This document shows, one piece after another, positions 23,838-26,228 of a DNA stretch of 55,736 nucleotides (position 1 is its first letter; the number at the start of each line of letters is the position of its first letter). Position numbers and translations under genes: made by a program. This stretch comes from Anaerolineae bacterium. GTDB taxonomy: Bacteria; Chloroflexota; Anaerolineae; Aggregatilineales; Phototrophicaceae. The notes beneath the pieces are model-generated. The model was not told the origin of the DNA. It did no database searches and worked only from the letters and a program-made list of their open reading frames with translations. The stretch is from positions 1 to 55,736 of the forward strand of contig JABWBO010000043.1 of NCBI GenBank assembly GCA_013360465.1, in the 5' to 3' direction.

Positions 23838-24932
23838 GTGATTTCCTTTACGCCTACGGAAGAACAGCAGCAGTTGGTCGAGGTCATCCGGCGCTACGCG
23901 GTCAGCGACGTGCAGCCGGTGGCGCACGAAGCGGACGAACATGAGCGCGTGCCGGGCGATGTGGTGCGCACCGGGTGGGAGATCGGGCTGGTTCCGACGG
24001 CGATCCCCGAAGCGATGGGAGGGCTGGGCGAGATGAGCGCCATCACCAACGTGCTTGCCGCCGAAGAATTCGCCTATGGCGATCTGGCGACGGCGCTCCA
24101 GGTGCTTGCGCCGGCGCTGTTCGCCTATCCGCTCGTCTTATACGGGACAGAGGCGCAGAAGCAGCTTTATCTGCCGCAGTTTCTCGATGAACGCCCGGCG
24201 CATTTTTCGGCGGCGCTGGTTGAACCGGGCGTGTTCTTCGACCCGCACGATCTGAAGACGACGGCGCGCGTCGAAGGCGGCAAGATACTGATCAACGGCG
24301 TGAAGAGCGCCGTGCCTCTGGCGGCGGTCGCCAACGCCATGCTGGTCTATGCCCGCGACGACGGCGGCAAAGCCGCCGCCTACATCGTCGAAGCCGATGC
24401 GCACGGTGTGGAGATCGGTGCGCGCGAGAAGCTGCTGGGTGTGCGCGCCCTGCCGACCCACCGCGTGACCTTCAAGGACGCCGCCGTCGATCTCGACTGC
24501 AAACTGGGCGGCGAGACTGGCGCGGATGTGCAGGCGCTCCTCAACCGTTCCTGGACGGCGCTGGCGGCGCTCGGCGTCGGCGTGGCGCGCTACGCCTTCG
24601 AGTATGCCCGCGATTACGCCAAACAGCGCGTGCAGTTTGGCGTGCCTATCGCCCAGAAGCAGGCGATTGCCTTCATGCTGGCGGAAATGGCGATTGAAGT
24701 GGACGCCGCCCGCCTGATGGTGTGGGAGGCGGCATGGAAGCTGGATCGCGGCGAGGACGCCACCCGCGAAGCCTATTTGGCGCGGCAGTACAGTGACAAA
24801 GCCGCCATGTTCGTGACCGACGCCGCCGTACAGGTACTCGGCGGTTATGGCTTCATCCGCGAATACCCGGTCGAGCGGCTGCTGCGCAATGCGCGTGGGC
24901 TGGCGACGTTCGACGGGCTGGCGATCATTTGA
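23838..24932 (+). CDS. acyl-CoA dehydrogenase-like protein, catalytic Glu replaced by Asp, short C-terminus
   Basis: 364 residues from GTG 23838. Overall acyl-CoA dehydrogenase fold: N-terminal helical domain, central beta domain (AALVEPGVFFDPHDL, ARVEGGKILINGVKSAVPLA), and C-terminal helices with YAKQRVQFGVPIAQKQAIAF and AAVQVLGGYGFIREYPVERL. Most relatives have YEGT with the catalytic Glu after the PVERL..R.A segment and then about 20 more residues. Here the corresponding place reads ATFDGLAII: Asp359 stands where Glu is expected and the protein then ends. The central domain also lacks the usual TEPGAGSD motif. It may be the non-catalytic, FAD-binding partner of the dehydrogenase encoded 36 bases downstream. 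Confidence 0.88.
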   Translation: MISFTPTEEQQQLVEVIRRYAVSDVQPVAHEADEHERVPGDVVRTGWEIGLVPTAIPEAMGGLGEMSAITNVLAAEEFAYGDLATALQVLAPALFAYPLVLYGTEAQKQLYLPQFLDERPAHFSAALVEPGVFFDPHDLKTTARVEGGKILINGVKSAVPLAAVANAMLVYARDDGGKAAAYIVEADAHGVEIGAREKLLGVRALPTHRVTFKDAAVDLDCKLGGETGADVQALLNRSWTALAALGVGVARYAFEYARDYAKQRVQFGVPIAQKQAIAFMLAEMAIEVDAARLMVWEAAWKLDRGEDATREAYLARQYSDKAAMFVTDAAVQVLGGYGFIREYPVERLLRNARGLATFDGLAII

Positions 24933-24968
24933 GCGGGCGTAAGAGACGGCTGAGCGATTTGGAGCGAG

Positions 24969-26228
24969 ATGACGATGGCGATCAGTTTTGAAATTCCTGA
25001 GAATGTGAAACAGCAGCAGGACATGGTCAAGATGGTGGCGGAACACATCATGCGCCCCATCAGCCGGGAGCTGGACGAGAACGAACACGCCCGCCCGCTG
25101 CCCTTCGTCGAGAACATGTGGCCCTTCATGCGCGATATGCAGAAGCGTAACCTGGAAAAGCTCGATGCCGGCGATGGACGGAAACGGCGCGAAGGACCCG
25201 GAGTCGCCAACCTGCGCCTGATGATGATGATCGAGATGCTCTCCTGGGGCGACGCCGGCATCTATCTGTGTCTGCCCGGCGGCGCGCTGGGCGGCGCAGC
25301 TATCGAGGCGGTGGGCACGCCGGAACAGAAGAAGAAGTACCTGGGGCGCTTCGCCGAAGGCGACCAAGCCGCCTGGGGCGCGATGGCGATGACCGAACCG
25401 GGAGCGGGGTCCGATACGTCGTCGATTCAGACGACAGCGGTCTTCGACGAAGCAGCGCAGCAGTGGGTGATCAACGGCGAAAAGATCTTCTGCACCAACG
25501 GCAAGTTGGCGCTGGATGAATCCAACGGGCTGGTGGTGGTCTGGGCGACCATCGACCGCGAGGCGGGGCGGGCGGGTATGCGCCCGTTCATCGTCGAAGC
25601 GGGCACGCCGGGTGTGAAGGTGACCAAGACGGAGATCAAGCACGGCATCCGCGCCAGCGACACGGCGGCGATTGTCTTCGAAAACGCCCGCATCCCGGCG
25701 GACGCTATCCTGGGCAGCCCGGAAGTGCAGCGCGGCGAAGGTTCCGGCGGCTTCAAGGGCGCGATGGCGACTTTCGACGCTACCCGTCCGCTGGTGGCAG
25801 CGAGCGCTCTGGGGATCGGGCGTGCTTCGCTGGAATTTCTGATCGAAAAGCTGAAGGAGAACGGGGTCGAAATTCCTTACGGCGCGCCGTATCACCAACT
25901 GTCGGCGATTCAGCGCGATGTCATCGAGATGGAGGCGGAACTGCGGGCGACCTATCTGCTGACGCTGCGGGCGATCTCGATGCTCGATCACGGGCAGCAT
26001 AACAGCCTGGAAGCCTCGATGGCGAAGGCGAAAGCGGGCAAAGTCGTGACGCGCATCGGGCAGAAGGCGGTGGCGCTGCTGGGCGCAGCGGGTTACAGCC
26101 GCGAATGGCTGCTGGAAAAATGGATGCGCGACGCCAAGATCAACGACCTTTACGAGGGAACCGGGCAGATCAACACGCTGATCGTGGCGCGGCGCGTGCT
26201 GGGTTACAGCAGTCGTGAATTGAGCTGA
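24969..26228 (+). CDS. acyl-CoA dehydrogenase
   Basis: 419 residues. The central FAD/substrate motif AMTEPGAGSDTSSIQT is intact, as are EWVINGEK-type (QQWVINGEKIFCTNG) and the C-terminal WMRDAKINDLYEGTGQINT with catalytic Glu396. Role: FAD-dependent alpha,beta-dehydrogenation of an acyl-CoA, passing electrons to ETF. The gene follows a sister acyl-CoA dehydrogenase without the Glu, suggesting a two-subunit enzyme. An N-terminal stretch of about 45 charged residues (NEHARPLPFVENMWPFM, GDGRKRREGPG) precedes the standard core. RBS GGAG is close to ATG 24969; a second ATG at 24975 is also possible. Confidence 0.93.
   Translation: MTMAISFEIPENVKQQQDMVKMVAEHIMRPISRELDENEHARPLPFVENMWPFMRDMQKRNLEKLDAGDGRKRREGPGVANLRLMMMIEMLSWGDAGIYLCLPGGALGGAAIEAVGTPEQKKKYLGRFAEGDQAAWGAMAMTEPGAGSDTSSIQTTAVFDEAAQQWVINGEKIFCTNGKLALDESNGLVVVWATIDREAGRAGMRPFIVEAGTPGVKVTKTEIKHGIRASDTAAIVFENARIPADAILGSPEVQRGEGSGGFKGAMATFDATRPLVAASALGIGRASLEFLIEKLKENGVEIPYGAPYHQLSAIQRDVIEMEAELRATYLLTLRAISMLDHGQHNSLEASMAKAKAGKVVTRIGQKAVALLGAAGYSREWLLEKWMRDAKINDLYEGTGQINTLIVARRVLGYSSRELS

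Follow-up and report, generated by a model that had tools for sequence, protein, structure and literature searches.

A tandem acyl-CoA dehydrogenase gene pair in an Anaerolineae contig, predicted to encode one two-subunit enzyme of the FadE24-FadE23 type

Results

We analysed two adjacent acyl-CoA dehydrogenase genes, here called ACAD1 and ACAD2, in a stretch of 55,736 nucleotides from an Anaerolineae bacterium (contig JABWBO010000043.1 of assembly GCA_013360465.1), hereafter referred to as the window. The two predicted proteins have lost opposite halves of the pocket for flavin adenine dinucleotide (FAD). Our reading, to which we assign a probability of roughly 0.85, is that ACAD1 (beta) and ACAD2 (alpha) together make up a single, obligately heteromeric acyl-CoA dehydrogenase. 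The enzyme would most likely be alpha2beta2 with two rather than four FAD sites, is placed with the FadE24-FadE23 type and probably performs the first step of general beta-oxidation. The initial annotation of this DNA had proposed a two-subunit enzyme of the alpha2beta2 kind in which one subunit is without a working base site, and this proposal is supported at the sequence level.

Both genes are on the plus strand in head-to-tail order, with 36 bp between them. Their positions and informative residues are given below, with residues compared to medium-chain acyl-CoA dehydrogenase (MCAD) and with those facing the adenosine diphosphate (ADP) end of FAD termed ADP-side residues.

23838..24932, plus strand: ACAD1, beta-type (FadE24-like) acyl-CoA dehydrogenase subunit, GTG start, 364 amino acids
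24627..24638, plus strand: ACAD1 R264-F267 (RVQF), equivalent to MCAD R281/F284, ADP-side residues kept
24831..24845, plus strand: ACAD1 Q332-G336 (QVLGG), equivalent to MCAD Q349/G353, ADP-side residues kept
24912..24932, plus strand: ACAD1 D359 at the catalytic-Glu column, short tail and stop
24969..26228, plus strand: ACAD2, alpha-type (FadE23-like) predicted catalytic subunit, 419 amino acids
25392..25415, plus strand: ACAD2 TEPGAGSD (residues 142-149), flavin-binding motif
26154..26156, plus strand: ACAD2 E396 codon (LYEGT), expected catalytic base, Glu in 104 of 104 ACAD2-type rows

The N-terminal, middle and C-terminal acyl-CoA dehydrogenase domains of Pfam (PF02771, PF02770 and PF00441) score above the gathering score in both proteins, which by these domains and by their fold matches are members of the acyl-CoA dehydrogenase family. 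No NCBIfam model reached its cut-off for ACAD1 or ACAD2, so no family name was obtained, and homologues of both genes are annotated merely as "acyl-CoA dehydrogenase family protein". AlphaFold models were built from 14-row alignments. The ACAD1 model (predicted local distance difference test score, pLDDT, 89.3) had MCAD 8sgp_A as its best match in the Protein Data Bank (PDB), with Z 44.4, root-mean-square deviation 2.2 and 356 aligned residues; for the ACAD2 model (pLDDT 72.5) the best match was MCAD 4p13_B, with Z 33.0, deviation 3.4 and 351 aligned residues. MCAD heads many near-ties in the structure comparison for both chains, and these single-chain models support a predicted acyl-CoA dehydrogenase fold for each.

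Complementary loss across the FAD site

Each FAD of a normal homotetramer sits between two copies of the same chain: one gives the isoalloxazine pocket and the catalytic Glu, and its neighbour clamps the ADP end. In MCAD numbering, we take the first chain to meet FAD through T136, S142, T168, E376 and T378 (the ring/base set) and the neighbour through R281, F284, Q349 and G353 (the ADP-side set). Alignment to human MCAD (4p13) placed D359 of ACAD1 and E396 of ACAD2 in the E376 column. It also confirmed what the initial annotation had read from the motifs, namely that ACAD1 has FDGLAII where YEGT is expected, lacks TEPGAGSD and has a cut C-terminus, and that ACAD2 has both motifs. At the site of TEPGAGSD in ACAD2, ACAD1 has EPGVFFD, and its C-terminus is ATFDGLAII followed by the stop. 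ACAD2 is degenerate too, as the R..F and Q...G residues that meet the ADP part of FAD in MCAD are gone.

We then scored both sets in 239 distinct proteins from the fetched loci, with proteins shorter than 300 amino acids and identical copies dropped. In this collection 104 proteins combine a retained ADP-side half with no more than two of the five ring/base residues (ACAD1 type), and 104 others combine a retained ring/base half with no more than one of the four ADP-side residues (ACAD2 type). Another 28 proteins hold at least three residues in both sets (27 ordinary enzymes and one protein at locus L184), and the last three hold three of five ring/base and none of four ADP-side residues, one being a contig-end fragment and two being copies of a different paralogue. 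Residue by residue, the ACAD1 type retains R281 in 104/104, F284 in 102/104, Q349 in 104/104 and G353 in 104/104 rows, with T136 in 4/104, S142 in 1/104, T168 in 0/104, T378 in 5/104 and E376 in 30/104. The ACAD2 type is the reverse: T136, S142, E376 and T378 are each present in 104/104 rows and T168 in 103/104, with R281 in 4/104, F284 and Q349 in 0/104 and G353 in 2/104. Seven ordinary paralogues from the genome of the window were scored as well, and they retain 4-6 of 6 residues in one set and 4-5 of 5 in the other.

As far as sequence can tell, the true signature of the pair is therefore complementary loss, with ACAD1 and ACAD2 as mirror images and with both halves kept in ordinary relatives. 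The two types were defined by the residue signature itself, so the counts alone are partly circular; the rows used in the trees described below recover the same two groups as clades. With the cofactor pocket divided in this way between the two genes, the pair very probably works only together. In the enzyme that we propose, ACAD2 would hold the flavin ring and its E396 would take the proton, and ACAD1 would clamp the ADP end of the same FAD through its Arg, Phe, Gln and Gly, giving a tetramer in which two of the FAD sites would be functional and the other two blind. The complementary losses, the adjacency and co-occurrence of the two genes and their clades are seen in the data; physical association, the 2:2 stoichiometry, the cofactor count and the role of E396 as base are what we infer.

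Adjacency, co-occurrence and spread of the pair

The initial annotation had left to a survey of relatives whether the two genes are always adjacent, and they are found together throughout. Of 104 ACAD1 loci (window included), 99 have an ACAD2 gene downstream in the same orientation, and the other five loci stop at a contig edge 19-735 bp off, one of them (L151) with a partial ACAD2 before the contig end. The gap between the genes is up to 100 bp in 65 loci, 100-1000 bp in 33 and 1952 bp in one. In the phylum sample, the identical 33 of 301 genomes have both orthologues, with E<=1e-120 for ACAD1 and, for ACAD2, E<=1e-150 in 32 genomes and 7.8e-103 in G307, where the gene is cut by a contig end; weaker matches in other genomes, 18 of them with ACAD1 (1e-91 to 1e-99) and 15 with ACAD2 (1e-95 to 1e-103), were counted as ordinary enzymes. 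Among 61 close genomes, ACAD1 was found in 33 (E<=1e-120) and ACAD2 in 34 (E<=1e-80), the one addition to the set being G056, where the contig ends 235 bases from the start of ACAD2.

ACAD1 orthologues within the order share 54-70% identity with the window's copy (96% in G006), and those from outside Chloroflexota about 37-52%. By record titles the pair occurs in at least seven phyla, namely Chloroflexota (Anaerolineae, Dehalococcoidia and Herpetosiphon), Myxococcota, Binatota, Thermodesulfobacteriota (Desulfobacteraceae and Smithella), Acidobacteriota, Actinomycetota and Pseudomonadota; this is a lower bound from the best 80 of 584 relatives, and most of the contigs are metagenome assemblies, for which the phylum of single contigs is possibly misassigned. 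The initial annotation had valued the pair as an extension of the architecture to a new phylum. That novelty falls away, as the same pair is present in all these phyla; the architecture is already known in kind, and the spread of the pair is wider than had been supposed. Our literature search, which covered listings and passages only, found no account of the pair in Chloroflexota, and we make no claim that it is absent from print.

Two further observations concern single loci. The gap between ACAD1 and ACAD2 is about 800-900 bp in several relatives, and at L093 it encodes an open reading frame (ORF) of 269 amino acids (8480-9289) with no Pfam match. The ACAD2 match in G004 (L070 6558-7458, G004:C205) is in two pieces, of which the first ends at an off-frame stop and the second at the contig end; this would be a frameshift or an assembly error.

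Placement in the FadE24-FadE23-type family

A protein search of plasmid records revealed tandem pairs in Rhodococcus DN22 and Tsukamurella, with a hisN-annotated gene upstream, and a like pair in a Nocardia farcinica record that has no annotation. The actinobacterial pair has the beta-alpha order, split signature and short beta tail seen in ACAD1-ACAD2, and identity to the Rhodococcus and Tsukamurella partners is 44% for ACAD2 and 36-38% for ACAD1. Passages of PMC2834668 place impC (Rv3137) and pflA of M. tuberculosis before fadE24-fadE23-fadB4, and our link of the reference pair to Rv3139/Rv3140 goes through this gene neighbourhood (hisN near the pair, impC in M. tuberculosis), not through direct sequence comparison.

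Trees were calculated from rows picked by hand out of 255 plus the Nocardia rows, first 101 and then 63, with over-long Nocardia ORFs shortened to the final 430 residues. Among the rows omitted from the 63-row tree were six that were odd or on long branches (noc_257345, noc_256335, par_L006, par_L007, par_L009 and L201_ACAD1_9707). In the 101-row tree the ACAD1-type and ACAD2-type rows (32 each) formed one clade each, with the actinobacterial chains inside and a support value of 100, and the same two clades received 100/100 in the careful 63-row tree (16 rows each). By this placement, ACAD1-ACAD2 belong to the FadE24-FadE23-type family.

The nearest tree branches to the pair are MCAD-like enzymes with both halves, and in the 63-row tree an ordinary enzyme (L190) stands beside ACAD1. 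ACAD1 and ACAD2 as sister clades were neither shown nor rejected (approximately unbiased test, p-AU 0.188). We see about even odds that the pairs form a widespread non-steroid alpha2beta2 family of an origin separate from the steroid pairs, in which the gene of an MCAD-like homotetramer was duplicated, the two copies lost complementary halves of the FAD site between subunits, two active sites were thereby traded for an obligate partnership, and the pair then spread to at least seven phyla.

Gene neighbourhood and substrate

The genes around the pair are as follows.

22043..22726, plus strand: TetR-family regulator (Pfam TetR_N, TetR_C_24), possible operon regulator
22939..23766, plus strand: short-chain dehydrogenase (SDR), FabG-like, missing from some relatives
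26763..29159, plus strand: FadN/FadB-like 3-hydroxyacyl-CoA dehydrogenase and enoyl-CoA hydratase (Pfam 3HCDH_N, 3HCDH, ECH_1)
29473..30660, plus strand: acetyl-CoA acyltransferase (thiolase, FadA-like; Pfam Thiolase_N/C; TIGR01930 at 454.5 bits, above cut-off)

The FadN-like gene (best NCBIfam match NF052272, 546.5 bits, below the cut-off of 999) and the thiolase gene follow the pair on the same strand, so that the link to FadN and FadA drawn by the initial annotation holds in the window as a fadN-fadA-type arrangement. Of the 32 relatives that have the pair, 26 show a TetR match upstream on the pair's strand. This context alone suggests that the pair acts in general fatty acyl-CoA oxidation, where it would catalyse the first oxidation step of acyl-CoA beta-oxidation and feed the FadN-like hydratase/dehydrogenase and the thiolase. 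The unusual or bulky acyl chains envisaged by the initial annotation are not supported, since a fadN/fadA-like neighbourhood suggests ordinary fatty acyl-CoA as substrate; no search of the genome for steroid genes was made. A number of ORFs flanking the pair, most of them in loci from other phyla than Chloroflexota, were scanned with Pfam and showed no common metabolic neighbour.

Between ACAD2 and the FadN-like gene there is an ORF of 130 amino acids (26345-26734, plus strand) with no Pfam or NCBIfam match; it has a counterpart of 98% identity in G006 (L072) and none in the other 37 close-relative stretches. On a Smithella contig (L176) a protein with an SCP-2 sterol-transfer domain (5126-5782) is encoded directly upstream of the pair. 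Farther along the window, positions 35151-46782 form a sugar-use region with a Gfo/Idh/MocA oxidoreductase, an FGGY kinase, a solute-binding protein, a LacI-type regulator and an L-fucose isomerase C-terminal domain protein.

Discussion

Several observations weigh against an obligate two-subunit enzyme of general beta-oxidation, and we collect them here. Extra ACAD2 copies exist: G042 has a second one (L092 7965-9218; G042:C2:795964-797214) with no ACAD1 within its 17-kb stretch, G142 has a second one (G142:C16:79612-80595) on a contig other than that of its pair, and at L189 two tandem ACAD2 genes (7181-8392 and 8401-9630) stand behind one ACAD1. Several alpha subunits may share one beta in some genomes. 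The loss of the base is not universal in beta subunits, because Glu is still at that position in 30 of the 104 ACAD1-type members and in all three actinobacterial FadE24-type proteins. The protein at L184 (6001-7092) is ACAD1-like, is paired with an adjacent ACAD2 and has the short tail, yet it has S142, T168 and E376, that is, three of five ring/base residues; by its residues it is the single intermediate between the ordinary and split-site states among the 239 proteins. Three more ACAD1-type proteins (L177, L179 and L185) retain two of the five. The ACAD2 model is of moderate quality only, as its pLDDT value indicates. Of the 32 close relatives that carry the pair, just 17 have the FadN-like neighbour (in three of the 15 without it the contig stops at or in ACAD2), and no FadN match was found in the non-Chloroflexota loci, whose flanks were at most 6 kb. 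The substrate assignment is weak because the fadN link is local in this way and unseen outside Chloroflexota. Finally, passages of PMC11980559 name a "FadE23-FadE24 complex", citing a 2013 study of alpha2beta2 FadE enzymes, and according to the same text this complex reportedly catalyses a reaction different from the dehydrogenation of acyl-CoA.

The extra ACAD2 copies, at least one of them without an adjacent ACAD1, would fit with separate enzymes, ACAD2 being an active homotetramer and ACAD1 a decaying paralogue or a regulator. We regard this as improbable. An ACAD2 homotetramer would have a crippled FAD site because the ADP-side residues R281, F284, Q349 and G353 are lost in nearly all ACAD2-type proteins, and ACAD1 is full-length and conserved with near-invariant ADP-side residues, which argues against decay. 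Complete co-occurrence in the phylum sample also stands against it.

The initial annotation had related the pair to the FadE26-FadE27 and FadE28-FadE29 enzymes of steroid degradation, and on that view ACAD1-ACAD2 would represent, in Chloroflexota, a branch of the alpha2beta2 enzymes of the steroid side chain and act on bulky acyl-CoAs. The division of labour between subunits is the same, according to passages of PMC11153573. For comparison we used steroid-type chains of Nocardia; one alpha that was checked has 4x28_A as its nearest PDB chain, and one beta has 6wy8_A and then 4x28_D. In both trees the Nocardia steroid-type alphas and betas form groups of their own apart from ACAD1 and ACAD2. 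Forcing ACAD2 together with the steroid alphas was rejected (p-AU 0.024), and the union of ACAD1 with the steroid betas was not (p-AU 0.075). The supposed kinship accordingly fails for the alpha subunit and is less firmly rejected for the beta subunit, which the trees also keep apart; both subunits group with the FadE24-FadE23 type. Instead of YEGT, the five steroid-type alphas have C-terminal motifs such as TIYGGSNE or LTFGGGTNE. In addition, 4x28 is outside the best 60 of the 120 and 114 PDB sequence matches of ACAD1 and ACAD2, respectively. In the structure comparison it is not among the best 50 matches listed for ACAD1 and has rank 47 for ACAD2, which excludes nothing. We consider a steroid branch very unlikely.

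The remaining question concerns the base column of ACAD1, which the initial annotation had described as a Glu to Asp change. Asp is indeed at the column, but it is not a signature, because the column holds D in 30, E in 30 and other residues in 44 of the 104 distinct ACAD1-type rows (T 26, L 7, eleven others). The picture is similar for the 95 rows that remain at <95% identity (E 29, D 25, T 23, other 18), and it is variable even within one order, where 32 ACAD1 orthologues of close relatives have E 11, D 10, T 6, C 2, A 1, Y 1 and S 1. Judging by these rows, the base site of ACAD1-type proteins drifts and Asp is one of many states. That ACAD1 is active by itself with Asp359 as an alternative base for some special chemistry has in its favour that Asp occupies the catalytic Glu column here and in 30 of 104 proteins, but it is scarcely credible given the variable column, which rules out Asp as a conserved alternative base, and given that T136, S142, T168 and T378 are gone in nearly all ACAD1-type proteins whatever the column residue. 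An early stop produced by an assembly frameshift was likewise ruled out for ACAD1, since the tail has the same length, exactly four residues past the next Gly, in 104 of 104 distinct ACAD1-type proteins and in L184. All 104 ACAD2-type rows have a tail of at least 13 residues, as do the rows with both halves (27 of 28), the exception being L184.

If the two genes encode one heteromeric enzyme, genome-based models would count two enzymes although neither has more than half a cofactor site by itself. The residue signature tells members of the pair apart from ordinary enzymes, L184 being the sole intermediate among the 239 proteins, and is usable to annotate such pairs across bacteria. The pair is also a clear case of complementary loss, and it offers a non-steroid model for a two-site tetramer that is otherwise known from mycobacterial cholesterol enzymes.

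Comparison with known systems

The ChsE4-ChsE5 (FadE26-FadE27) and ChsE1-ChsE2 (FadE28-FadE29) enzymes show the division of labour that we predict for ACAD1-ACAD2. Passages of PMC11153573 describe an alpha subunit with the catalytic Glu and the isoalloxazine site and a beta subunit that contacts the ADP-ribose part, and passages of PMC11153573 and PMC8399759 give two active sites per tetramer. According to the same passages and our trees, these enzymes differ from our pair in clade, C-terminal motif and steroid gene context. The pimeloyl-CoA dehydrogenase PimC-PimD is also made of two acyl-CoA dehydrogenase subunits, and its relatives are maybe heterotetramers (passages of PMC12543098). It is different from our pair: on TIGR03203 (PimD) and TIGR03204 (PimC), with cut-offs of 652.7 and 623.85 bits, ACAD1 scores 78.0 and 43.7 bits and ACAD2 55.8 and 47.2 bits. 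Nocardia steroid-type chains reach 299 and 337 bits on these two models. The MCAD homotetramer is the top solved fold for both of our chains and differs in having both halves in one chain.

FadE24-FadE23 of Mycobacteriales (by gene neighbourhood M. tuberculosis Rv3139-Rv3140), judged by the homologues in the Rhodococcus DN22, Tsukamurella and Nocardia farcinica records, shares with ACAD1-ACAD2 the beta-alpha gene order, the split signature, the short beta tail and one clade per subunit. There are three differences. The actinobacterial beta subunit has an extra N-terminal stretch (455-469 amino acids in all, as annotated or by the longest ORF) and retains Glu at the base column, and the M. tuberculosis pair lies beyond impC-pflA and before fadB4 in the passages of PMC2834668, whereas the pair in the window lies by fadN and fadA.

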